From the IMG/VR virus record IMGVR_UViG_3300046170_000464, positions 16,499 through 80,498 of that record: a DNA stretch of 64,000 bases. One strand, 5' to 3'. The stretch's first letter is position 1. Each line of letters begins with the position of its first letter. Both the position numbers and the translations under genes were made by a program. The stretch is from a virus. Positions 1 to 57,760 of the stretch are shown here, one piece after another. The notes beneath the pieces were generated by a model. That model saw only the letters and a list, made by a program, of their open reading frames with translations, was not told the DNA's origin and did not search any database.

Positions 1-462
1 CAAGATAAATTTATTCCTTTTGACAACTACCGTCGCTGGAATTTAAGTGGTGTCACCCCAGATGTTTGGGGACCAATCGGATACAACTGCGGTTTTAAAT
101 TCCGTCCGGCTGAGTCCGGTGTGATTGGTTTTACAACACTAGGTAACCCATACGGTGGTTTTATGATCATGGATCAAGAAGACTCTGAAGAGTACATTCG
201 CTCAGACAGCAGTCACCCTGTAAAAAGTCACGCAAAAATTGGTTTAAGAAACTGGCCGATTGCCGATCGATCATCAATGGGTTTGGCTTTTGAAAAACTG
301 CTCCCAGGGCAAGAACATCGCCGAGCTATTCCTCTGATAAACGAAAATGGAAAAATTAAAATCCCTGAGTGCGCCTTAGTTCAGCACTTGGATAATAAGT
401 ACTCCTCTGCACTTTTAAAAAACTCTCCTATGATCGACACAGACACAATGTTTACATACTGA
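1..462 (+). CDS. Partial hypothetical protein (5' end outside window)
   Basis: The frame is open from base 1 (Q-D-K-F-I-P-F-D-N-Y) to TGA at 460-462, so the true start lies upstream of the window. At least 153 residues are visible. The internal GTG at 121 is probably not the start, because the residues before it (YRRWNLSGVTPDVWGP) look protein-like. I recognise no family; it does not show the terminase nuclease motifs one might expect upstream of a portal cluster. The next gene starts 2 nt after its stop, so the two are probably co-transcribed. Confidence 0.7.
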   Translation, partial: QDKFIPFDNYRRWNLSGVTPDVWGPIGYNCGFKFRPAESGVIGFTTLGNPYGGFMIMDQEDSEEYIRSDSSHPVKSHAKIGLRNWPIADRSSMGLAFEKLLPGQEHRRAIPLINENGKIKIPECALVQHLDNKYSSALLKNSPMIDTDTMFTY

Positions 463-2926: not shown

Positions 2927-5146
2927 ATGGCAGCCTCACTTGACACGCGGAATAAGTTCGAGGAGATCTTAGAGGCTGCTCGGACTCAAGGTCGACAGAA
3001 CCAAGCTGCAACCATGGTGGTGCTGAGCCACTTGCAGCAGATGACCCTCTTGATGATTAAAAAGGGGATCTCTTTTTACTGCGACCAAGACACTCTAAAA
3101 AGCAGAACAAGATTTCTGCACGATGTGATCGAGTTAAATCGGCTTGATATTCGTTTTCCAGCGATTATCCGAAACTTCCTAATTGATGGTTGTGGCCTGT
3201 TTTACTTCCGCCCAGATCAAAAACTTAAATATCAAATCTATTTCTTTAACAAAAATCAATATCGGGTCTTTCACGATCTGAATGGTCAAATTGAAGAAGT
3301 CGTAATTATTTACGATTACAAAGTAAAGAACGCCACCCTTGGTCTACCGAGCGATGTCTACGGACAAAACAAACGGTATGTTCGACTTTCGATTACAGCT
3401 GAGACAATCAGCGAAGTTGAGTCTGACTCAGAACTAAGTTTCGAAGTAGAACCAGGCCCAGGTATCAACGGCACTAAAGTTCGCGCAAATTCTCTTGGTT
3501 TTGTGCCCGCTGTTGAATGCTTAAACAAACCTAACGCCAGCGGCACAGAAGGAGAAGGTGATTTTGATCCGTTTATGGAGCAAATTGTGCTTCATAACGA
3601 GATGATCACCAACATCTCAAAGAATATTGAATTTTTTGGTAACCCTACTCTGATCTCCAGCCGACCACGGTCTGACCTGGTCGAAGCTGCTGATGCCGGA
3701 AGTGCTTTCCGTCCCACAATCAGTTCTCAAAGTGGGTTTGCTGGGAGAGATTCTCCTTCAACACGCGTTAGTGAACCATTCGGTTCAGCGATGGGAGGTG
3801 GCCTTCGTGTGCCTCGCATCATCGCTAACGTCGAACCTTCAGATCGTGTCGGCTACATGACGCCTGACCCGATTAGCGGTGACATGAACCGTTATGTTCT
3901 GTTGCTGAGAGAAGAAATCCGTACCGCTCTTGGCGGTGTGGACGAAATTTCAATCTCGGCAGGCGCAACTGCGACAGAAATTAAAGGTTTGATGGGTCGT
4001 GCCCAAGCCACGGCTCTTCGAAAAAACAAAAGTTTCCTTACTTACGGTTTTTGTCGTCTCTTAGAGATGATGATTTACCACCAGGAAATGATCTTCCGTG
4101 AGTCGTTTATTGCGGCCTCAGGATTAAAGGAACCTAAAGAACCAACTGAATTAACCGAAGACTCAACTGAAAAATATCAGAAAGCTTTACGTCGTTTTGA
4201 CATGAAGCTCGACGAAGAAATTAAAAAAGCCTTAGAGAAAAACAAAGTTCCTCGCGGCGTTATTGGTTTACCAGAAGATGGAGACCGTAGCGTTTCATAT
4301 CGCTTTATGGGCGATGTGTACGAAGATACGGCCTTTGACTTACAGCAAAAGTCAATCGTTGTAAGGAACATGCAAGAGGTTGGTGTTAATAGTGTTGAAG
4401 CTATTAAGTACCTATTCCCGGATAAGACTGAAGCCGAACGTGCCGAAATGTTGAAAGGATTCCCTTTCAGAATGGTTGGACAAACACAGTCGGCAATGCA
4501 GCAATTCCTGGTATTATTAAATCAGATGTATCAGTCTCCGCATCCTCTTGCGCCTGATCAACCCCTTGCGGCTGATCCTAGACTGAATATCACACCGCTC
4601 CTTTACAGGACGTTTGATCACCTTGCGGAAGAATTAACTTACTCGGGTAGCTATGAGCCAGCAGATCCAAGCTTCGACCCCGAGCCCGGTGTCCCCGGCG
4701 GCAGCCCCGGCGGTATACAACGACCAGGGCTCAACAACCGCCTTCCCGCAGTGGGTGGCACAAACGTCTACCCCGGCGGTAGCTTCGGTGCCTACAGCCC
4801 AAGCGCCACAGCAGGTGGCACCGGTTTCGGACCCTTCTATCAACGCCCCGTCCAGCCCGTCAACGTCGCAATCCTCCCCGAGCAACCCTTGGGAAGCAGC
4901 GATGGGGTCCCTGGAACGAGTGTTGGGCCAGATTCCATCCCCCAACCAGGCAGCACCATCACAGACCCTGGAAACACTGCAGGGTACAACACAGCTGAGT
5001 CAGCCTTCACAGGTCCAGCCTTGGGCCTACCAGCAGCAGGCTCCGCAGACATTGCCTACCAGCGCCTCACCGACCCAAACTTCCTCGCAGGCTTCTACGG
5101 AAACCAGCAACGGGGAACTCAGCGCCGCAAGCGTCGAGGTAATTAA
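2927..5146 (+). CDS. Portal protein with long Pro/Gly-rich C-terminal tail
   Basis: A 739-residue protein. About the first 570 residues read as a phage portal: helical N terminus, mixed alpha/beta core with IYFFNKNQYRVFHDLNGQ and VVIIYDYKV, then YVLLLREEIRTALGGVDEIS, typical of portal stem regions. It sits between small genes and the capsid genes. From about residue 575 the protein becomes a Pro/Gly/Ala-rich tail ending in a basic RRKRRGN. That tail is encoded by DNA also read in the +1 frame by the next gene (4653-5146). Third codon positions in the tail are mostly C, which supports this frame being translated. Confidence 0.85.
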   Translation: MAASLDTRNKFEEILEAARTQGRQNQAATMVVLSHLQQMTLLMIKKGISFYCDQDTLKSRTRFLHDVIELNRLDIRFPAIIRNFLIDGCGLFYFRPDQKLKYQIYFFNKNQYRVFHDLNGQIEEVVIIYDYKVKNATLGLPSDVYGQNKRYVRLSITAETISEVESDSELSFEVEPGPGINGTKVRANSLGFVPAVECLNKPNASGTEGEGDFDPFMEQIVLHNEMITNISKNIEFFGNPTLISSRPRSDLVEAADAGSAFRPTISSQSGFAGRDSPSTRVSEPFGSAMGGGLRVPRIIANVEPSDRVGYMTPDPISGDMNRYVLLLREEIRTALGGVDEISISAGATATEIKGLMGRAQATALRKNKSFLTYGFCRLLEMMIYHQEMIFRESFIAASGLKEPKEPTELTEDSTEKYQKALRRFDMKLDEEIKKALEKNKVPRGVIGLPEDGDRSVSYRFMGDVYEDTAFDLQQKSIVVRNMQEVGVNSVEAIKYLFPDKTEAERAEMLKGFPFRMVGQTQSAMQQFLVLLNQMYQSPHPLAPDQPLAADPRLNITPLLYRTFDHLAEELTYSGSYEPADPSFDPEPGVPGGSPGGIQRPGLNNRLPAVGGTNVYPGGSFGAYSPSATAGGTGFGPFYQRPVQPVNVAILPEQPLGSSDGVPGTSVGPDSIPQPGSTITDPGNTAGYNTAESAFTGPALGLPAAGSADIAYQRLTDPNFLAGFYGNQQRGTQRRKRRGN

Positions 5147-5847: not shown

Positions 5848-6108
5848 ATGTTGCGTAGTCTTTTTTCGCTAGTTCTTGCCGCTGTCTTGTGGGTTCAAGT
5901 GCCTCAATGGGAAGCCGACTGGTCAAGATGCGCTGTTGATGTACCCGATGTCAGCTGTCATTGGTACGTAGTCGCACCAGATAACACTTTTGGCAAAGGT
6001 TTTGACTGGGCAACAGCACCGTGGTTTGATGTCAACGGCCTGCAAGACGTAAGCAAGTTAAAAAACACGATGCAAGTAATCCATCAAGAATCTTTGTCGG
6101 TTAGCTGA
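5848..6108 (+). CDS. Hypothetical secreted protein
   Basis: An 86-residue protein. It begins with a signal-like segment (MLRSLFSLVLAAVLWVQVP), followed by a Trp/Cys-containing domain (WEADWSRC, VSCHWYVV, FDWATAPWFDVNGL). Two cysteines could form a disulfide in the periplasm. Its 3' end overlaps the convergent minus-strand membrane gene by 25 nt. Function not recognised. Confidence 0.65.
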   Translation: MLRSLFSLVLAAVLWVQVPQWEADWSRCAVDVPDVSCHWYVVAPDNTFGKGFDWATAPWFDVNGLQDVSKLKNTMQVIHQESLSVS

Positions 6109-6419
6109 AGATCTTTACTTGTTTTTTCTTTAATTTTGTGGAGCACCGTAACTTCAAGGGTATTTAGTATTTTTATACCGGCGTAACCACCTACAAAAGC
6201 CACTGCAACGGCTTCTGTTTTACTTAATTTCATTCGCTCAGCTATCGCAGGGCTGACAAAAGTCGCAAGTAACCAGCCGACAGATAATGCTCTTAAAAAA
6301 TGTGTTATGAACTCGCGTTTACTTCGTGGGTTGACTAAAGCTTCAGTCACGGTGCCTGCAATAGAGCTACCTGCTAGACCAGCATCAACTGCCATCATAG
6401 ATGCAACTTTCTCTAGCAT
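6084..6419 (-). CDS. Small membrane protein, holin candidate
   Basis: A 111-residue protein on the minus strand inside a plus-strand cluster. It has an N-terminal Ala/Gly-rich region and two predicted membrane helices (about SVGWLLATFVSPAIA and AVAVAFVGGYAGIKIL), with a charged C-terminal tail (HKIKEKTSKDLQLTDKDS). Size, two helices and charged tail are holin-like; the family is not recognised by sequence. It overlaps the convergent gene by 25 nt. Confidence 0.6.
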   Translation of the reverse strand: MLEKVASMMAVDAGLAGSSIAGTVTEALVNPRSKREFITHFLRALSVGWLLATFVSPAIAERMKLSKTEAVAVAFVGGYAGIKILNTLEVTVLHKIKEKTSKDLQLTDKDS

Positions 6420-31252: not shown

Positions 31253-31894
31253 TTACCTAAGCCATGTAACAAGAGCATATCGTGTGCCTTTAGTTACTGG
31301 TAATGCTTGATGAGGGTACATCCAGTTAGATGGAAAAAATATTCCAGTTCCTTTTTTTTGCTCAATTTTTACTGAATTATTAAAAAAAGATAAACCACCA
31401 TCTTCAAAATCATCGTTAAGTTGTACTGAGCAGCTCACTTTTCTATTTATTCCTTCTAATTCTGTGCCTTTGTTGTCGTTAGCATATAACTCATCTATAT
31501 GCTCCTTAAAAACACAGCCTTCGGAGTATTTAAGTATTGAATAACCCTCGTCGTATGTAAATTGTAAGTGTAGATATTGATCAACATATTTATGAGCACC
31601 ATGTGTAATTTGTTCAAATATTTTATTATCCATACTTTTTATTTTTTGAGAAAGGGGTAAATTAGATAACCAAATTTCTTCACTTGTTCTTACATCTTCT
31701 ACAACAACGTCGCTAGATACATAATCAACTTCGTTATATTTTTCAGGATTTATTTTTGGGTGGTTTACTCCGGATCGCACCCATGAATCTCCGTAATCTG
31801 TTTCTAAAGTTTCAATAATTTCGTCACATAAATCTTCTGAAAATAAACCGTGTTGAATATTTATAAATTCTTGTAAATTTTTATCACTGTACAT
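31253..31894 (-). CDS. 2-oxoglutarate/Fe(II) oxygenase (prolyl hydroxylase-like)
   Basis: A 213-residue protein. The metal-binding HxD is EHIDEL (His 132, Asp 134); the distal His is in MYPHQAL (195), and GTRYALVTWLR supplies the 2-oxoglutarate-binding Arg (205). The core strands include CSVQLNDDFEDGGLSFF. It fits the prolyl 4-hydroxylase-like family common in cyanophages, where targets are mostly unknown. It sits tail-to-tail with the collar gene. Confidence 0.88.
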   Translation of the reverse strand: MYSDKNLQEFINIQHGLFSEDLCDEIIETLETDYGDSWVRSGVNHPKINPEKYNEVDYVSSDVVVEDVRTSEEIWLSNLPLSQKIKSMDNKIFEQITHGAHKYVDQYLHLQFTYDEGYSILKYSEGCVFKEHIDELYANDNKGTELEGINRKVSCSVQLNDDFEDGGLSFFNNSVKIEQKKGTGIFFPSNWMYPHQALPVTKGTRYALVTWLR

Positions 31895-31960: not shown

Positions 31961-32533
31961 ATGCAACAGACTAAACCATATGAGTATATGCTTGTTGAGG
32001 ACTTTTTTACTCAAGAAGAACTAAGCGTTGTCTGGGATGATTTAGCGATTACATTTGCTCGATCTTTGTGGCAACCACGGTCCTTAGGACAGAATGAACC
32101 TAGCATGGTCTCTAGGTCTGGTTTATTTCTTGATAAAGAAAACAATCATTTACTGCAGGGTGTTACTAAATCAGTAGACAAATTATTTGACGGTTACACC
32201 AGCACATTTGCTGAAATGTGTTTCGCTAACTATCCGGTTATTAACACTAATCGTCACTCTATGTTATGTAGTCTTTATACAAATACTGGATTCTACAAAA
32301 AACACAGAGATACTTCGGTTACGTCTGCTTTGATTTGGTTATGTAAAGAACCTAAATCTTTTACAGGCGGTGATTTAATTCTTCATGATTTAGACGAAAC
32401 AATACCCTTCAAAAATAACACAATGATAATGTTTCCAAGTCAGGCGTTTCACGAAGTAACTCCTGTAGTAATGGACGAGTCTTTAAGTGCAATAGAAGGA
32501 AGAATTTGCTTATCTATATTTATGTCTAATTAA
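31961..32533 (+). CDS. 2-oxoglutarate/Fe(II) oxygenase
   Basis: A 190-residue protein. HxD is KKHRDTS (His 115, Asp 117); the distal His is in AFHEVTP (164), and EGRICLSIF gives the Arg (181). FTGGDLILHD is the typical middle strand. It is transcribed divergently from the first oxygenase. All required residues are present; substrate unknown, possibly fibre proteins or host targets. Confidence 0.88.
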   Translation: MQQTKPYEYMLVEDFFTQEELSVVWDDLAITFARSLWQPRSLGQNEPSMVSRSGLFLDKENNHLLQGVTKSVDKLFDGYTSTFAEMCFANYPVINTNRHSMLCSLYTNTGFYKKHRDTSVTSALIWLCKEPKSFTGGDLILHDLDETIPFKNNTMIMFPSQAFHEVTPVVMDESLSAIEGRICLSIFMSN

Positions 32534-49930: not shown

Positions 49931-51822
49931 TTTTCAGCCCAAGAATCGCCGATGTTGGCATCGCACTTCACTGGCACTTTAGTGATAATTGTTTCTCCTG
50001 CATCTTTCATTTCTCTTTCTAGTATCGTTTTGTAGTGTTCTGTTTTGCCTTCTACTGCTTCGAATATTAATTCGTCATGAACTGTAGCAATCGGTCTGAA
50101 CTCGTGATTAACAAATTTGCTCAGTCTTGCGATAGCCAACTTCAAGACATCTGCTCCAGCTCCTTGAATAATCGTGTTAGCACAAGTAGTCATAGCTGCG
50201 TCGTCGTAACTAAGTAGCCTCCTTCTTCCGATTGGAGTTCTTACGTAAGTCCAACCATCCTGAACCATTGCATTTCTTTCGCGGTGCCACTCCCTTAAAC
50301 GAGGGTAAGCACGATGAAAACCAGCATGTGCGACTTTGGCTTCAGAAAGAGAGATGATATTTCCTGAACTGGCTGCATACGTTTTGTACTTTTTAAATCC
50401 CATACCGTAAAGCAAAGCGAAATTCAGGGTCTTACCCATCTGCCTTTGAGATTTTTCTACCTGTTCAATCCCTACGTGGTAAATAAGACTCGCTGTAAGA
50501 GAGTGAAGGTCAGCTCCCTCTTGGAAAGCTTTGATCATTTGAGGAATACCAATCAACTCCGCAGCTAATCGAAGTTCGATCTGCGAGTAATCGGCAATAA
50601 CAAATTTAAAACCAGGCGACGGTACAAAACATTCTCGAAACTCTTTATCCCTGGGTACCTGCTGGATATTGATTCCCCAGTTTTCTTTTTTCTTTTTGCC
50701 AGTTACTCGTTTTGCACCCGAGCTAGTGAATCTTCCGCTGTTAGCTCCGTAGGAGTTATAACCACTGTGCATATGACCTGACACAGGGTTTATGTTGTCG
50801 ATAATTTTTTGCGTATGAGCCAGAGCTGTCTCTAGCTTTGTTCGTTTCCTAAGCAGATTGAGTGTGTGATCGTCGCTATCAAATTCGCTTAAAGCGACTT
50901 GCGACAGAGTCTGCTTTCCTGTTCTTGGGTCAACTGGTAAATCAGTGTCGACTTCGTTGAAGCATCTAATGCACTGTGCATTAGATCCAGGATTGAATTC
51001 CTTCTTAGCGTTTTTTCCGATGGCGATTGATCCATCGGCAAGTTTGGGGAGTTTTTTTTCATCGGGGAGACGACGATCAAGGTCCTCACAAAATAATCTA
51101 GTCGCTGTGTCCAGCTCCTGCTGCTTTCTAAATTTTAGAGCTTTCACTTTATTGACATCCACATTAAACCCATAGTGACACATTAAAGCCACAGGGCGAA
51201 TAACTTGACTCTCGAGAGTGTAGACCTCAAGTAGGTTTTCAGCTGCTAGCTCTGTCAACTGCAAAGCCGCGATCTTAGGAAGTATGTCAACGTCTTTCGC
51301 TGCATATTCAATTTGCTCAATCGCTAACTCATCAGCACTCCAATCAGAAACTTGTTGTTCTTTCGATATTTCGAGATCTAAACGTCTTGAGACGACCGCC
51401 TTCAAGGAACAACTGACGTCTCCAAAAAAGACTTTTTCAGTTTTAGGGCTTACCTTCTTTTCCTTAAACCCAGCACAGAGACAACGCTCAGCAAGAAAGG
51501 TATCAAAGATTTTCTTTTTGTAATCAATACCCAGTTTTAAGAAAAACTGCATATCAAAGTTTGCGTTGTGCAGGAGAAGCATCTCTCGAGACTCGATCAG
51601 AGCCTTAAGACCGTCGGTGTTTTTGCACTTAAAAAAATCTATGACATAGACGATCCGGTCAGCGACATCTTCTTGAGTAGTACAAAGCTGAAGTAACCGT
51701 GGTTCATGGACTCTTGCATCTAATCCTGTCGTTTCAAAGTCAGCGCAAAGTTTGGGAAGGATCCATAACTCAGCTAACGCTTTTTCAAGCTGATCCCTTG
51801 TCGTTATGTAATTGATTTGCAT
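49927..51822 (-). CDS. Family A DNA polymerase with 3'-5' exonuclease domain
   Basis: From ATG 51822 this is 631 residues; an upstream ATG at 51846 lies inside a terminator hairpin and is unlikely. The exonuclease domain has LCADFETTGLDA (Exo I) and LLLHNANFDMQFFLKLG. The polymerase domain has FVIADYSQIELRLAAEL (motif A), MGKTLNFALLYGMG (motif B) and ATVHDELIFEAV (motif C). The 5'-nuclease domain of bacterial Pol I is absent, as in phage enzymes. It replicates the phage genome. Confidence 0.95.
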   Translation of the reverse strand: MQINYITTRDQLEKALAELWILPKLCADFETTGLDARVHEPRLLQLCTTQEDVADRIVYVIDFFKCKNTDGLKALIESREMLLLHNANFDMQFFLKLGIDYKKKIFDTFLAERCLCAGFKEKKVSPKTEKVFFGDVSCSLKAVVSRRLDLEISKEQQVSDWSADELAIEQIEYAAKDVDILPKIAALQLTELAAENLLEVYTLESQVIRPVALMCHYGFNVDVNKVKALKFRKQQELDTATRLFCEDLDRRLPDEKKLPKLADGSIAIGKNAKKEFNPGSNAQCIRCFNEVDTDLPVDPRTGKQTLSQVALSEFDSDDHTLNLLRKRTKLETALAHTQKIIDNINPVSGHMHSGYNSYGANSGRFTSSGAKRVTGKKKKENWGINIQQVPRDKEFRECFVPSPGFKFVIADYSQIELRLAAELIGIPQMIKAFQEGADLHSLTASLIYHVGIEQVEKSQRQMGKTLNFALLYGMGFKKYKTYAASSGNIISLSEAKVAHAGFHRAYPRLREWHRERNAMVQDGWTYVRTPIGRRRLLSYDDAAMTTCANTIIQGAGADVLKLAIARLSKFVNHEFRPIATVHDELIFEAVEGKTEHYKTILEREMKDAGETIITKVPVKCDANIGDSWAEK

Positions 51823-51828
51823 AGCATT

Positions 51829-51857
51829 AAAAAAGGGCCGCTTCATTTGCGGCCCAC
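51829..51857 (-). terminator. Rho-independent terminator upstream of DNA polymerase
   Basis: Minus-strand hairpin GGGCCGC / GCGGCCC with a 7-nt loop, followed by six T. It ends transcription of the minus-strand gene at 51878-52660. Because it covers the first possible polymerase start, it also supports ATG 51822. The polymerase then needs read-through or its own promoter. Confidence 0.85.
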
Positions 51858-51877: not shown

Positions 51878-52660
51878 TCAGGCAACGCGTCCTTCCCAAA
51901 ATTTTAGGATGTATTCATCAACGTCTGCCCAGGTGTCGACAAGAACCTCGCCTTGTTCAGTCAAGTTGAGCACGTACACCTTGCGTTGCAAAAAGCTTTG
52001 AGTCTCGTTCAGCTTTTTGTCGGTCGAGCCGTAAGTGGTTTCCTCGCTGACTTTTACTAAACCTCTTTCTACGAGGTAAGCAAGACCATCACGCATCGCT
52101 CCGTATACCGGCGATGAATGATAGGTCATGACTCCTTTTTGAGCCTTAGCAACGAAAGGAGAATACTTGCTCTTTATTTTTTTAAATCCCTTGAACAGCT
52201 CGGAATTTTTTGATAGACCCACACTTGCCAAGCTATTGGCTTGCTTTACAGCAATTGAACGCAGTGTTAAGTCCGAATGCCTTGCCAACTCAGAGAGAAT
52301 CATTGCTGCTCCTGCTGATCTGGTGTTGCGAGCAACAAGCAATTCTTCAAGGGCAACATCCAAAGAAACTTTCTTTACTTGAATGTCACTGATCGTGTTA
52401 CGACTTTTTTTCTTTGAATTTCCCTTTACTTTTTTAGTAGAGCCTGGAGTAGCCATGGCTAGCTTTGCTGCCAAAGCGGCAAGCTCTGGATGCTTCTTCT
52501 CAATACTCAGCTTGAATAACTTTGTACAGTCAAGAAGACTTGAGTCCACATGATCCATCAAGTCGACGGTCACTGAAGGCAGTGAGTCCGATAGTGTGCA
52601 CAGTGTGGTTGCCTCCGACTCTTTAAGTTGGACGCCAGCAATTTGAAAGTTGACTTTCAT
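51878..52660 (-). CDS. Hypothetical protein with C-terminal winged-helix character
   Basis: A 260-residue protein. Helical N terminus, a basic linker (TKKVKGNSKKKSRNTISDIQ) and a C-terminal part reading AMRDGLAYLVERGLVKVSEE, then RKVYVLNLTEQGEVLVDTW, which looks like the recognition helix and wing of a winged helix. It may be a replication or transcription factor. It ends at a strong terminator. Confidence 0.6.
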   Translation of the reverse strand: MKVNFQIAGVQLKESEATTLCTLSDSLPSVTVDLMDHVDSSLLDCTKLFKLSIEKKHPELAALAAKLAMATPGSTKKVKGNSKKKSRNTISDIQVKKVSLDVALEELLVARNTRSAGAAMILSELARHSDLTLRSIAVKQANSLASVGLSKNSELFKGFKKIKSKYSPFVAKAQKGVMTYHSSPVYGAMRDGLAYLVERGLVKVSEETTYGSTDKKLNETQSFLQRKVYVLNLTEQGEVLVDTWADVDEYILKFWEGRVA

Positions 52661-52705: not shown

Positions 52706-53080
52706 TCAACCCTTCCTAGATTTCAATATGTCCTTTTCAACTTCTCTCACTATGTGCCACAGTTCGTATGAAGTACACTGGATTACTCCGTAAAGCTCTT
52801 TTAGGCTTAAACAAGCATAGTCTTTACTTATATATTTACTTACACATATAGTTTTTTCTGACCTTGGTATTCCTCCTGTGTCTAACGTCAGCACATTAAA
52901 TACCTCTGGGCCTGAAAGATATGTGATTAAACGTCCTTCAAACGTCGTTACGTGACGTGTGTCTTGATATTGAGTAAGACAATTTGCTATCCAATGCAAT
53001 AATTCTGCGTTGTCTAGCTTTGTGACATACTTTTCGGATATTGAATCTACAGTGGCAATTGCTTCTCTTAAGGGATGCAC
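52706..53080 (-). CDS. Hypothetical protein
   Basis: A 124-residue protein between the VWA gene and the winged-helix gene. Helical start (DSISEKYVTKLDNAELLHWI), beta middle (FEGRLITYLSGPEVFNVLTL), helical end (YELWHIVREVEKDILKSRKG). It may be the last gene of the MoxR-VWA operon. No family recognised. Confidence 0.55.
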   Translation of the reverse strand: MHPLREAIATVDSISEKYVTKLDNAELLHWIANCLTQYQDTRHVTTFEGRLITYLSGPEVFNVLTLDTGGIPRSEKTICVSKYISKDYACLSLKELYGVIQCTSYELWHIVREVEKDILKSRKG

Positions 53081-53115: not shown

Positions 53116-54657
53116 TTACTTAATCGCCTTCTGAAATAAGTCAGAAGACTCTGCATCTTCACAAATATCAACCAAATGTACTGAATCGCAGAACCGTAAA
53201 AGACTTTCACTCTTTTTACCTATACAAAATCCAAAGACATCGATTTTATTATTATCTTTAAAAGCGTTAAATCTACGAACAGTTAAGTCAGTCACTTGAC
53301 ACTCCCCGTCTGTAATTATCAAAATATCTGCTCTTGGGTCTATGTCAGCACGTACAGAAGCGTGAATCATAACTTGATCGAAAGAAGTTCCGCCTCTGGT
53401 GTACCAAGCCATCAGAAAGTTAAGTAACCCTTCGTGGTCATTGCTGCGAGGCTCTAAAACTATGCTCTGGTTTACTCCTGTGTCGAACAAATGTATTTGT
53501 ATTTCTCTATGCTCCTTCGAACATTGTTCCGCAATCACATATGAGATTGCTTTGGACCACAACTCGGAATCACCCGCCATAGATCCAGAAATATCTACAT
53601 ACATGACTACTGGACCTTTGCTTAATTCTTTTACTGATGCTTCAAAATCTTTGCTGAGAATAGTTTTTTGAGAATGTTTGTACGCAAATAAAGCTTTACC
53701 TTCTTCTGTTGCAGCTAAAGCAATTTCTGAAGAAAAAGCTTTAGTCACATCGTCAGACATTTTTGCACCAACAATGTCGCTAAAAGACGAATTATGTTTC
53801 TTAGCTCTAATTCGTTGAGCCCAGGCTTGTTTCATCCCTCCAAGTCTTTTTGCTAACTCCATTAATCGTCGGTTTGTCTGTAGGCGTTTGGCTAGCTCTT
53901 GCTTTTGTTTTACATCGTTCAACTTGACTCCAAACCCCTCGTGGTTACCTGCCATAGCATTCATGGCCTCTTGTATATCTCCAGCCTCTTTATGGCCTTG
54001 TTCAATGCTGTCTTGTATTTCGCTCTTGTACTGATTGTTAGCGTTGCTAAGAATATCCTCGATCCGTTGACCTAATTCTTTTCCCTGTTGTCTGAGTTGA
54101 GAAGCTTTTTGATTGTCACCAGCTTTAATAGCGTCAGTAAAATCCTTTCTCATCTGCTGCAAATCACTAGCCATAACTGTTAGTGCTTTTTGCACAGATT
54201 TATCCTCCTCAATCATTTCTCCAATGACATCAGCTATTTCGTTAAGGATGCATACAGCTGTGTTTCCTGATTCAAAATGTTTTCCTAAACAATTTTCATA
54301 AACAGCACTGTATATCGGGCTAGTTGCTAGACCAATCAGGATATTTTGCCAAAGCACATTCTCAGGTTTATACCCTTTAGGTGGTGCAGGATTAGAACCA
54401 TCTTGTTTTTCCTGAAGGTATTTTTCTATATCCTCCATTGACACAGAAAGATTAACGTCTCCCCCGGTGTATAAGAATTCAAATAACTCTTTACCAAATC
54501 GACTCAGTTGTCTGATGTCGTACTGATCTGAGAAGTAATTAACCCGTGGCTTAGCTTCGCGTACAAAATCAGGCCATAGAAAATCAGTAAGCGCAGAAAC
54601 AGCAAGGACCAATGGCTCTGCTTCAGCAAGTCTTATTACATCGATAGATCTTTTCAT
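53116..54657 (-). CDS. VWA-domain protein (ViaA/CobT-like partner of MoxR ATPase)
   Basis: A 513-residue protein. About residues 1-330 are helical with coiled segments (QQGKELGQRIEDILSNANNQ). The C-terminal domain is a von Willebrand A fold with an intact metal site: MYVDISGSMAGDS (D-x-S-x-S), RGGTSFDQV (Thr) and ADILIITDGECQ (Asp). This C-terminal VWA after a long helical region matches ViaA, CobT and CbbO-type partners of MoxR ATPases. It overlaps the ATPase stop by 4 nt, so the two are made together. Confidence 0.85.
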   Translation of the reverse strand: MKRSIDVIRLAEAEPLVLAVSALTDFLWPDFVREAKPRVNYFSDQYDIRQLSRFGKELFEFLYTGGDVNLSVSMEDIEKYLQEKQDGSNPAPPKGYKPENVLWQNILIGLATSPIYSAVYENCLGKHFESGNTAVCILNEIADVIGEMIEEDKSVQKALTVMASDLQQMRKDFTDAIKAGDNQKASQLRQQGKELGQRIEDILSNANNQYKSEIQDSIEQGHKEAGDIQEAMNAMAGNHEGFGVKLNDVKQKQELAKRLQTNRRLMELAKRLGGMKQAWAQRIRAKKHNSSFSDIVGAKMSDDVTKAFSSEIALAATEEGKALFAYKHSQKTILSKDFEASVKELSKGPVVMYVDISGSMAGDSELWSKAISYVIAEQCSKEHREIQIHLFDTGVNQSIVLEPRSNDHEGLLNFLMAWYTRGGTSFDQVMIHASVRADIDPRADILIITDGECQVTDLTVRRFNAFKDNNKIDVFGFCIGKKSESLLRFCDSVHLVDICEDAESSDLFQKAIK

Positions 54658-55835
54658 TTTTGATACCTAGAAATTGACTCTGCAACTTGGTCTACGTTGT
54701 GATTAATTTCTTGACAAACTTTTGTAGCTTTATACCTGGTAGCAGCGGTAAATCGCATCTGATCGTTATCAAGCGTTGCTTCTACTTTCTGAGCCACAGT
54801 TTTCAAGTCGTTATGTAGCTGTTTAAGTTTTCCAACGTGAATACTAAGCTCAGAGATTTTATCAATTTGTTTAGTTCTTAGAGAGTTGTATTCGTTCATC
54901 AAGCCGGTTGAAGCTCGCTGAACTGATCGCAAGAATTTATCTGCTGTGGGGACACACTGATCAACAACTTCTTTAATCGTTGCCACATCCTCCTCTGTTT
55001 GGTAAACGATATGAGGCAGAGTCGAATGTAGATATTCGGGGAGTAAAGAGTCTTCTCCTTGAACAACTGCCCACCCTCTTAGAAATTTCAGTATCTGTAC
55101 ACGACGTCTGTCTGAAACAAATACACCTCTTCCTTCAAGCATATCTATACACTCTGTGAACACATCAATAAACGTGTCTGTGACTGTGATCTCCCCTGCT
55201 GCTGTCTGCAGTTTTGAAATAGACTCGAGAGTCAGCCCTGAAGAAATATCAGGTCTACCTCCTTTTAGTGCCCAGTTGTAAAGTTTGCGTTTATTTGTAG
55301 GTTTCTTCAAACCAGATACAGTTGGTCGAAAAAGAAAACGATCACAAAACGCTTGAAGTGACTCGTCTGATGGGAAAGAGTTTGTTGCTGCAACGACTGA
55401 TTTGATCTCTGTTTGAATTAATTCTTTCCCATTGTTGAATGTTCTTTCGTTAAGAATTTGCAAGAGTGAGTTTAAGACTGCAGAACTTCCACGAAATAAT
55501 TCGTCTAAGAAAGCTATGTTGCTGTCAGGTAAGTATCCTTTTATATCACGCGTGTACTCATCTTTGAGTAACTTCGAAACTGCAACGGGACCGTAAAGCT
55601 CGGAAGGATCTGTGGTTGGAGAAAGAAGATAACTAAAGAATTTTGAGTTGTTAAATCCCTTCGCTACTTGTCTCACTAACTCAGACTTTCCAGTACCAGG
55701 AGCGCCGAACAAAAAGCAATTTTGCTCAGTGATAATGGCTGCAATGATGCCGTCAATGACGTCAGTCCTTTCCAGGAAAGCGTTATTCAACTGTGTACGA
55801 AAATTTTGAAGGTCTGTGAAAGTAGTAGTGTCCAT
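54654..55835 (-). CDS. MoxR-family AAA+ ATPase (RavA/CobS-like)
   Basis: A 393-residue protein. Walker A FLFGAPGTGKSE (residues 44-51), Walker B IAFLDELFRG (109-112), sensor 1 VVAATNSF (about 152) and an arginine in FCDRFLFR (166) are all intact. SPTTDPSELYGPVAVS is the MoxR-typical insertion. The C-terminal 150 residues are helical. In known pairs, MoxR ATPases and VWA proteins remodel targets, often inserting metals or activating enzymes. The target here is unknown. It sits in a four-gene operon with VWA and DUF3150-like proteins. Confidence 0.9.
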   Translation of the reverse strand: MDTTTFTDLQNFRTQLNNAFLERTDVIDGIIAAIITEQNCFLFGAPGTGKSELVRQVAKGFNNSKFFSYLLSPTTDPSELYGPVAVSKLLKDEYTRDIKGYLPDSNIAFLDELFRGSSAVLNSLLQILNERTFNNGKELIQTEIKSVVAATNSFPSDESLQAFCDRFLFRPTVSGLKKPTNKRKLYNWALKGGRPDISSGLTLESISKLQTAAGEITVTDTFIDVFTECIDMLEGRGVFVSDRRRVQILKFLRGWAVVQGEDSLLPEYLHSTLPHIVYQTEEDVATIKEVVDQCVPTADKFLRSVQRASTGLMNEYNSLRTKQIDKISELSIHVGKLKQLHNDLKTVAQKVEATLDNDQMRFTAATRYKATKVCQEINHNVDQVAESISRYQK

Positions 55836-55898
55836 GTTTAAAAGAAATTACGTTTGCGTTTGTAAGGCCCGTGAATAGATTTACCAGGGACTAAGTAC

Positions 55899-57101
55899 TT
55901 AAAAGTCGAGTTCTGTTCGTAGAAAGCTTTCCGACGAAGAACCTTCCTCCATGATCGTTTCAATGTCGGAAGATACAGCAACACGTTCCCGAGCTTTGCC
56001 AAGAACTTGTTGTAAATGCCGAGCCCTGTACTTGTAAACGCTCGTTTGAACCTCAATCTCTTGTTCAATCGTTTGGAGATCATGAGTGGAGTCGCACTGG
56101 GAAAGGTTAGTTAAAAGGTCTTTGTACTTATTTGTAAGCGTCAAAGACATCTGAAGAGATTCGAGTCCTTTAGAAGAAGTTGCTTCTTGAACTAGAAACT
56201 GAGATTCCTCTCGTATCTCTTCACGAATTTGAGTGTACTGCTCAAAGGCGTTGACGCGTTCTACTCCTTTCGGAGCATCCCTCATTGTCTGACCGATCTT
56301 TATCAAAGAAGTGATCAGCCCGTGGATACCTTTCAACTGAGGTAAATGTTTCGCCGCGAGTTCGATTTCATCTTTTATTCTCTGCCACGATCCTCGTTTA
56401 GTGTCTCTTTTCAGAACGATGTCGCCAACCTTGTTAGCTGCTCTGGAGTCCAGGTCATCGAGTAACTCAGCAATAGTGCCAAGACTTCTGTCGAGAGCTC
56501 CGTCGCAAGCAGCTTTTAAAACTTGAGACGTATTTACAGTGGCTTCATTTTGAATCTGACTTGCAAGAGTTTGGGGGTCATCAATCTTTTGCATGGTCGC
56601 AGGGTATGGACCTACAACTGAGACGTTAATTGGAGCCGAGAACTCTGCTTCAGTCGGAAACATTTTGAGGTAAGCCTCGCGAACTAGGTCGAGCTCGTGC
56701 TTGTCCACAAAGAGTGGAGAGAAAAAGTTGTCGACAGTTCTCTTCCAGTTCGAATATTCTTCAGGCCAAGAATCTTTAAGAAGCAAGTTGCATTCTTTTA
56801 CCTTGTCTCTGATTTCTTTGATCCGCTCCATAGCTTCTTCAAAGTAATCAGGATGAAGAAAATGGATATCGCCATGGTTAATGGTGCACCGATCGTAAAG
56901 TTGTACCTGAAGCATTCTCACGTCACGAAGGTGATCCTTCAAAGCGTTAGAAAGCTTTGGTCGAATTGACAAAGCACTAGCTTGCTTGAGTGTGTCTATG
57001 ACACCGTCAGGTAATTTGTAGTCTTCAAAAGCAATCTGTACGCTCTGCCTCACGGATGATGAGACAGAGCAGTGAAGGATGTAAATCTCAGGATTGTTCA
57101 T
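55899..57101 (-). CDS. DUF3150-like helical protein in MoxR-VWA operon
   Basis: A 400-residue, almost all-helical protein. The segment INHGDIHFLHPDYFEEAMER, then IKEIRDKVKECNLLLKDSWP, is like the DUF3150 core that accompanies CobS/MoxR-type and VWA genes in plasmids and phages. A long coiled middle and an acidic Ser/Glu-rich end follow. The family call is by pattern and context, so moderate. It starts 4 nt inside the upstream gene's stop (ATGA) and lies 63 nt before the ATPase gene. It may be the substrate adaptor of the complex. Confidence 0.6.
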   Translation of the reverse strand: MNNPEIYILHCSVSSSVRQSVQIAFEDYKLPDGVIDTLKQASALSIRPKLSNALKDHLRDVRMLQVQLYDRCTINHGDIHFLHPDYFEEAMERIKEIRDKVKECNLLLKDSWPEEYSNWKRTVDNFFSPLFVDKHELDLVREAYLKMFPTEAEFSAPINVSVVGPYPATMQKIDDPQTLASQIQNEATVNTSQVLKAACDGALDRSLGTIAELLDDLDSRAANKVGDIVLKRDTKRGSWQRIKDEIELAAKHLPQLKGIHGLITSLIKIGQTMRDAPKGVERVNAFEQYTQIREEIREESQFLVQEATSSKGLESLQMSLTLTNKYKDLLTNLSQCDSTHDLQTIEQEIEVQTSVYKYRARHLQQVLGKARERVAVSSDIETIMEEGSSSESFLRTELDF

Positions 57102-57514
57102 TTAGATAAACGCTTGTAAGCGGTAGTCACCTTTTCTGTTACGAAGTCAAAGCCTTTGATCTTTAGCTTTTCGATCACAGACTTACGCTTAGCCTTCAAG
57201 AGCTTCAGCTCACGCTCTTGCTTTTCGATTCTGATGTCGAGTTTGGCAAGTTCGTCACAAGGAACTGGTAACCGGGTCACTCGCACGATTACTTGCGCAC
57301 CAATCTCGGGGAAACGAAAGAGCGAGTCTGGTCCTTGGAATTGATCTAGTTCAATCCCTTTGTGCTCAGCAATAGTAAGAGCTGTGTTGAGAGTGTCGCG
57401 AGCAGCTTCCCAGGGTGCTCCAAAAGATTCACCAACCTCCGCTAGAGCGTGGTCGCACTCACCCCATAAGCGAGCTGTAAGAAAGGCTTTGTCTTGCAGA
57501 GATTCGAGTTTCAT
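57098..57514 (-). CDS. First gene of the MoxR-VWA operon, helical protein
   Basis: From ATG 57514 this is 138 residues (MKLESLQDKAFLTARLWGEC). The C-terminal half is a basic coiled coil (EKQERELKLLKAKRKSVIEK) followed by a short end. A sigma70-like promoter with a perfect TTGACA lies just upstream. It overlaps the DUF3150-like start by 4 nt. No family recognised. Confidence 0.65.
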   Translation of the reverse strand: MKLESLQDKAFLTARLWGECDHALAEVGESFGAPWEAARDTLNTALTIAEHKGIELDQFQGPDSLFRFPEIGAQVIVRVTRLPVPCDELAKLDIRIEKQERELKLLKAKRKSVIEKLKIKGFDFVTEKVTTAYKRLSK

Positions 57515-57556
57515 GTTCTTAGAATGTGATGGTGTTGATGGGTTGTCACAGAGCTG

Positions 57557-57585
57557 ATGGTAAGGCATCTTCTACCCTGTGTCAA
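57557..57585 (-). promoter_or_regulatory. Sigma70-type promoter of the MoxR-VWA operon
   Basis: On the minus strand, a perfect TTGACA (57585-57580), a 17-nt spacer and TACCAT (57562-57557) lie about 42 nt before ATG 57514. The -35 is consensus; the -10 matches four of six. Confidence 0.6.
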
Positions 57586-57728: not shown

Positions 57729-57760
57729 TAAAAAAATAAAGCGCGAAATTGCGCTTTATT
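57729..57760 (-). terminator. Rho-independent terminator
   Basis: A perfect 10-bp inverted repeat (AATAAAGCGC / GCGCTTTATT) with loop GAAATT is followed on the minus strand by a T run. It lies 7 nt after the stop of the gene at 57767 and separates that gene from the MoxR-VWA operon. Confidence 0.88.

Follow-up and report, generated by a model that had tools for sequence, protein, structure and literature searches.

The stretch of DNA analysed here (64,000 nucleotides; the window) belongs to an IMG/VR virus record of 80,498 bp. Its minus strand carries, within 53116-57568, four consecutive genes, encoding: P4, a coiled-coil protein; P3, a mostly helical protein; a MoxR AAA+ ATPase; and a VWA protein (Table 1). 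The P4 and P3 genes overlap by 4 nt (57098-57101), as do those of MoxR and VWA (54654-54657), and 63 nt separate P3 from MoxR. Our re-reading of the sequence gave the same gene set, strand, coordinates and two overlaps as had been claimed in an earlier reading made from the letters alone (the sequence-only reading). P4, however, probably starts at 57514 and not at 57568, because the promoter sits within the longer frame; the resulting length of 138 aa is like that in the relatives.

Table 1. Positions of the genes and sequence elements of the block (window numbering, except for the last row).
Feature	Position	Strand	Description
Terminator upstream of the block	57737-57758	-	8-bp stem, T7
Promoter TTGACA-17-TACCAT	57557-57585	-	read in the sequence; counterpart motif in relatives
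P4	57098-57514	-	138 aa, basic C-terminal coiled coil; ORF readable from 57568
P3	55899-57101	-	400 aa, mostly helical, DUF3150-like predicted fold
MoxR	54654-55835	-	393 aa, RavA-type AAA+ ATPase without LARA domain
Walker A GAPGTGKS	55683-55706	-	read in the sequence; conserved in relatives
Walker B FLDE	55500-55511	-	read in the sequence; conserved in relatives
VWA	53116-54657	-	513 aa, ViaA-type; helical N-terminus, C-terminal VWA domain with MIDAS
MIDAS DISGS	53581-53595	-	T at 53383-53394 (GGTS), D at 53305-53313 (TDG)
124-aa protein	52706-53080	-	no assigned function; probably in the same transcription unit as the block in the window's clade
260-aa protein	51878-52660	-	no assigned function; final gene before the conserved terminator; found throughout the lineage
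Terminator GGGCCGC-7-GCGGCCC-T6	51835-51855	-	between the 260-aa gene and polA
Leader element, copies in relatives	L022 ~6107-6135; L011:1072; L018 ~5115-5145; L213:1875		and 37 more

The sequence-only reading had placed a TTGACA promoter ahead of the block and an insulating terminator upstream of it. The promoter was recovered: promoter-like matches across the region occurred in chance number, but upstream of P4 a TTGACA-16..18-TANNNT motif was found in 49 of the 80 distinct loci, against 0.2 expected from mononucleotide shuffles (the loci share kinship and are not independent). The upstream terminator exists in the window, but the scanned relatives showed no counterpart at the corresponding position. 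The hairpin and T-run downstream were present in all 15 sequences compared (the window and 14 relatives), with differing stem sequences. The four genes are there as described, but the unit is probably longer and would run from 57585 to 51835 in the order P4-P3-MoxR-VWA-124 aa-260 aa, six genes in total. Gene arrangement, conserved promoter and conserved terminator together fit co-transcription, which argues against the refuting case that the sequence-only reading had named, namely genes that are not co-transcribed. The polA ORF start as listed overlaps the conserved terminator (window 51822-51846); the polA start probably lies at about 51822, giving 631 aa as in the relatives.

Identity of the encoded proteins

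The AAA+ core features of the MoxR family, RavA branch, were all found in the ATPase: besides Walker A and B it has the sensor-1 asparagine and the arginine in DRFLFRP, as had been read from the sequence, and these key residues were invariant in 30 aligned relatives. The protein matched the Pfam families PF20030 (4.8e-53, above the cut-off), AAA_lid_8 (2.4e-5) and AAA_5, the NCBIfam RavA model NF010054 (3.3e-38; 132 bits, far under the cut-off of 681) and the solved RavA structures in PDB (2.6e-35), the last match stopping at residue 332. No match to the LARA domain was found, and the protein ends at residue 393; of the marks of a RavA equivalog it has neither the NCBIfam score nor the LARA insertion in the C-terminal helices. 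Among the PHROG profiles it scored 4e-72 with its own family, versus 2e-4 with a family named porphyrin biosynthesis. In the tree the phage ATPases formed one clade (support 100/99), separate from RavA, the Moorella phage and the Acidianus two-tailed virus (ATV); Aphanizomenon phage CL131 joined this clade at 84/84, through long branches, and this join is unsure. The closest cellular MoxR relatives were actinobacterial (28-31% identity; retrieved by a scan of short peptide patterns, which can miss relatives). The apparent RavA of Campylobacter phage A11a and of some Salmonella and Escherichia phage records is nearly identical to that of enterobacteria; it probably derives from host DNA and was left out of account.

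The intact metal site claimed for the VWA protein was likewise recovered: the DISGS, GGTS and TDG motifs are present and the MIDAS residues (DxSxS, T, D) were invariant in 30 aligned relatives. As in MoxR-VWA pairs, its gene adjoins that of the ATPase. The best named match was to the NCBIfam ViaA model NF008230 (E 6.2e-12; 45.5 bits versus a cut-off of 500); alignment with real ViaA by hhalign gave E 3e-12 across the C-terminal half, and Pfam PF13519 matched at 3.6e-5, under the Pfam cut-off; a VWA fold was recovered as well. By these scores the protein is a distant ViaA relative that does not reach the ViaA equivalog cut-off. When VWA alone was used as a single-sequence query of viral contigs no match was returned, owing to the choice of peptide and not to absence. 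Among the NCBIfam matches at E ≤0.1 there was no CobS, NorQ or CbbQ family, the top matches being RavA and ViaA. From the list of pairs to which the sequence-only reading had compared the block, RavA-ViaA therefore stands, but CobS-CobT, NorQ-NorD and CbbQ-CbbO found no backing in profiles or PDB. Judged by sequence, the MoxR-VWA pair is of the RavA-ViaA type, yet neither RavA nor ViaA proper, since the scores are far below the NCBIfam cut-offs and LARA is absent.

Sequence searches of Pfam, PDB and NCBIfam gave nothing significant for P3, and the DUF3150 profile (PF11348) was matched neither by the window P3, nor among the top families of 28 P3 members, nor anywhere in the record. A Foldseek search with its AlphaFold2 model (pLDDT 86) gave nine matches of probability 1.00, each to a phage protein, and the top one is annotated DUF3150 (E 3.7e-7, TM only 0.42/0.54); over the nine, TM-scores were moderate (0.25-0.64) and identities 11-14%. 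Because of these moderate TM-scores the modelled likeness to DUF3150 is taken as a fold relationship and not as family membership, so that the earlier DUF3150 guess is backed by fold comparison but by no sequence profile. The fold search of PDB gave no match for P3, and hhalign gave no signal against the Moorella DUF6744 protein, the CL131 LPD29 protein or Dylan gp94. Among the nine fold matches is S5YZA3 (275 aa, Mycobacterium phage Dylan), which, judged by its length, is most probably Dylan gp94. At Dylan gp94-gp95 (L220:8233-10825) a protein of the length of the fold match adjoins an AAA ATPase of non-MoxR type, which suggests that phage proteins with the DUF3150-like fold have AAA+ partners of several types. 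P4 could not be assigned with confidence to any family in Pfam, PHROG or NCBIfam and gave only scattered weak matches.

Recurrence in related phages and the P4 leader

Relatedness to Synechococcus phage S-EIV1 was judged by portal, major capsid protein (MCP) and large terminase, and homologues of all three were found (identity 42-43%, 69% and 51%, respectively). On account of these identities a cyanobacterial host is likely; the high-light-inducible motif, sought as a sign of such a host, gave no match. On sequence evidence, the carriers of the block form a large family of phages from the environment, with a cyanobacterial virus among their relatives. Scans seeded with MoxR, with P3 and independently with polA yielded about 200 loci, and 95 that were distinct in their MoxR DNA were counted. 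The survey of neighbourhoods that the sequence-only reading had proposed came out in its favour: P4-P3-MoxR-VWA was complete and in the same order in 84 of the 95, and 10 of the 11 others end at a contig end. In the independent, polA-seeded sample the block was present wherever the DNA upstream was long enough to hold it. The sole real exception was L128, a 45.8-kb contig that keeps MoxR-VWA-260-aa gene-polA and lacks P3 and P4 despite 6 kb of upstream sequence; given this contig, P3 and P4 may be non-essential or may lie on unsampled sequence.

For close pairs, dN/dS was 0.02-0.09 for MoxR, VWA and P3 and 0.05-0.28 for P4. The conserved order and the strong purifying selection imply that the block is not a chance arrangement, and the low dN/dS together with the recurrence indicates, at the sequence level, that its genes are maintained and not decaying; the decay of the ATPase or VWA gene in relatives, which had been named as a possible refutation, did not occur. 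In most relatives polA lies directly 3' of the unit, and in L115 and L120 the block is intact and polA about 10 kb off. Profile searches for MoxR, VWA, P3 and P4 in S-EIV1 gave no match. Its polA is only 22% identical. Since S-EIV1 is also devoid of numerous further genes that this lineage has, the absence of the block there is weak functional evidence. The gene-content profile singled out no target: it carries no information here, as the entire core of the genome is common to all and S-EIV1 is too distant.

Directly 5' of P4 we found an H-type-pseudoknot-like element (NNGGY-GGCACCG-RCCNN-...AACGNGGNGC) in 41 distinct copies, every one at that place, and 0 copies outside the P4 upstream regions in 7.4 Mb, both strands counted; a first, strict regular expression had found 6 forms only and was replaced before this count. 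In 13 aligned copies the covariation was 0.192, versus 0.059 ± 0.019 in shuffled alignments (0/500 as high) and ≤0.055 in slid controls. In a wider set of 29 rows, 128 of 145 stem-1 pairs were formed, versus 99.8 after shuffling, although the search itself required three pairs per row and a few of the rows may be chance. Compensatory changes occur in both helices (one stem-2 pair is G-C, C-G or A-U), and in stem 2 the central pair is frequently non-standard. No match to Rfam was found. The element is located where the transcript of the P4 operon probably begins, and it is possible that it acts as an autoregulatory operator or riboswitch. The clade to which the window belongs lacks the pseudoknot.

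Some further elements were seen upstream of P4. Close relatives of the window (L002, L004, L008-L010) have an AGTGATC-loop-GATCACT hairpin just 3' of the P4 promoter (AGTGAC/GTCACT in L004) and no pseudoknot; the window itself has neither. In L018 a tRNA-like stretch (5008-5075), with acceptor-like ends and the T-arm GGGTTCGATTCCC, lies directly 5' of the P4 promoter; ARAGORN called no tRNA there and the Rfam match was weak. L014, L016, L017 and L019 have 3' halves similar to it. The related phage L019 also contains, at 686-723, an abiF RNA match slightly over the Rfam gathering score.

Possible functions and known counterparts

MoxR-VWA machines are widespread, and few of their targets are known. 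The reading we prefer, tentatively and with a probability of about 0.45, is that the block encodes a phage remodelling chaperone of the RavA-ViaA type together with P3 and P4, whose likeliest job is to put together or take apart a nucleoprotein complex or replication complex of the phage. By analogy with RavA, NorQ-NorD and ATV p618, MoxR would form an ATP-driven hexameric ring, on which VWA, via its MIDAS site, would be the adaptor; P3 and P4 may be further adaptors, or a bound scaffold that recruits the substrate. The block genes would be expressed together from the single promoter beside the replication genes (we infer both co-transcription and timing), and the machine would act on its presumed target during infection. 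A replication-side target is weakly favoured because of where the genes lie, their tie to the polA module and the MoxR-VWA pair of phage CL131, which overlaps a sliding-clamp gene by 4 nt. S-EIV1, with related head genes but a very different polA and none of the four block genes, fits the tie to replication. The sequence-only reading had argued for a working machine from a complete set with its own promoter; an intact, co-oriented, promoter-bearing MoxR-VWA set is indeed present, but sits in a larger replication-side unit. More doubtful is the further-reaching proposal of a new four-part MoxR machine, with P3 and P4 as constitutive subunits, that is dedicated to the replication complex and controlled in part of the lineage by the leader pseudoknot.

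The placement of the genes also bears on the idea of a virion-assembly chaperone, needed for folding or building some part of the tail or head, which we consider unlikely: the block lies on the minus-strand replication side, apart from the plus-strand structural genes, and S-EIV1 builds related heads without it, although its tail and fibre genes differ. This role has been proposed for the p618-p892 pair of ATV, for which stimulation of the ATPase by the VWA protein and binding to a tail protein were measured and chaperone activity was supported in vitro (PMC4124505), and for group 2.2 jumbo phages (PMC7824862); the window MoxR does match ATV p618, but as a remote relative. Improbable as well, in our judgement, is a takeover of the host in which the machine remodels a metal enzyme of the cell, or one of its respiratory, photosynthetic or other membrane complexes, as do RavA-ViaA, NorQ-NorD and CbbQ-CbbO. 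The sigma-70-like promoter would suit the host polymerase, RavA-ViaA of E. coli act on respiratory complexes and membranes (PMC3893208, PMC10585395, PMC9489729), and in NorQ-NorD, with a VWA finger in the ring pore, metal is reported to be inserted by twisting of the partner (PMC13036017). Both the LARA domain of RavA and the Arg-rich tail of ViaA, which serve the known targets and lipids, are absent here, however, and none of the genes in the block was recognised as coding for a metalloenzyme.

The match of MoxR to PF20030, a family named for ternary systems, raises the case of a counter-defence or conflict module akin to the bacterial MoxR-vWA ternary systems. That we regard as very improbable: PF20030 includes other phage MoxR pairs, no third component (VMAP or beta-propeller) was recognised in the neighbours scanned, the PADLOC models matched weakly and with the AAA part only, giving no convincing defence system, and the block is a fixed part of the lineage core, not a variable island.

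The preferred RavA-ViaA-type chaperone can be set against several known systems. With enterobacterial RavA-ViaA the block shares the MoxR family, the VWA partner, the order of ATPase then VWA and the short overlap; it differs in the identity of the ATPase (~31%), the lack of LARA, the additional P3 and P4 and its location in a phage genome. ATV also encodes a MoxR ATPase and a VWA protein, but the sequences are remote, the genes are non-adjacent, the virus is an archaeal spindle virus and no P3 or P4 is known there. Moorella phage MTATph1 and Aphanizomenon phage CL131 are tailed phages with a bpMoxR ATPase gene followed by a VWA gene, and the Moorella VWA gave a long profile match to that of the window; their upstream neighbours, in contrast, are DUF6744 or LPD29 proteins without detectable match to P3. 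A phage MoxR with a second subunit also occurs in Bacillus phage 0305phi8-36 (PMC2147016) and in group 2.2 jumbo phages (PMC7824862), with a proposed role in virion assembly or as metalloprotein chaperonin; these were compared by description only, and in the jumbo phages the VWA and a peptidase form one fused protein. The CobS-CobT pairs of haloarchaeal tailed viruses (PMC8651126) combine AAA+ and VWA/MIDAS genes as well, but their ATPase is of another AAA+ subfamily, and the lone MoxR of cyanophages also belongs to a different subfamily (PMC9964418).

The 'undescribed system' of the sequence-only reading is thus new as this variant only: MoxR-VWA pairs of viruses in general (ATV, 0305phi8-36, jumbo phages, haloviruses) are already published (PMC4124505, PMC2147016, PMC7824862, PMC8651126, PMC7911831), whereas for a RavA-ViaA-type phage block with P3 and P4 no prior description was found in the openly readable literature searched. 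The same literature yielded no paper naming DUF3150, and the block could give DUF3150-like proteins their first function. Being compact, part of the core of a widely sampled lineage and under strong selection, it offers a small system for finding the substrate and partners of a MoxR-VWA machine. Elsewhere in the window, within the half of the genome that has its genes on the plus strand, two adjacent 2OG-Fe(II) oxygenase genes (31253-31894 and 31961-32533) lie on opposite strands.
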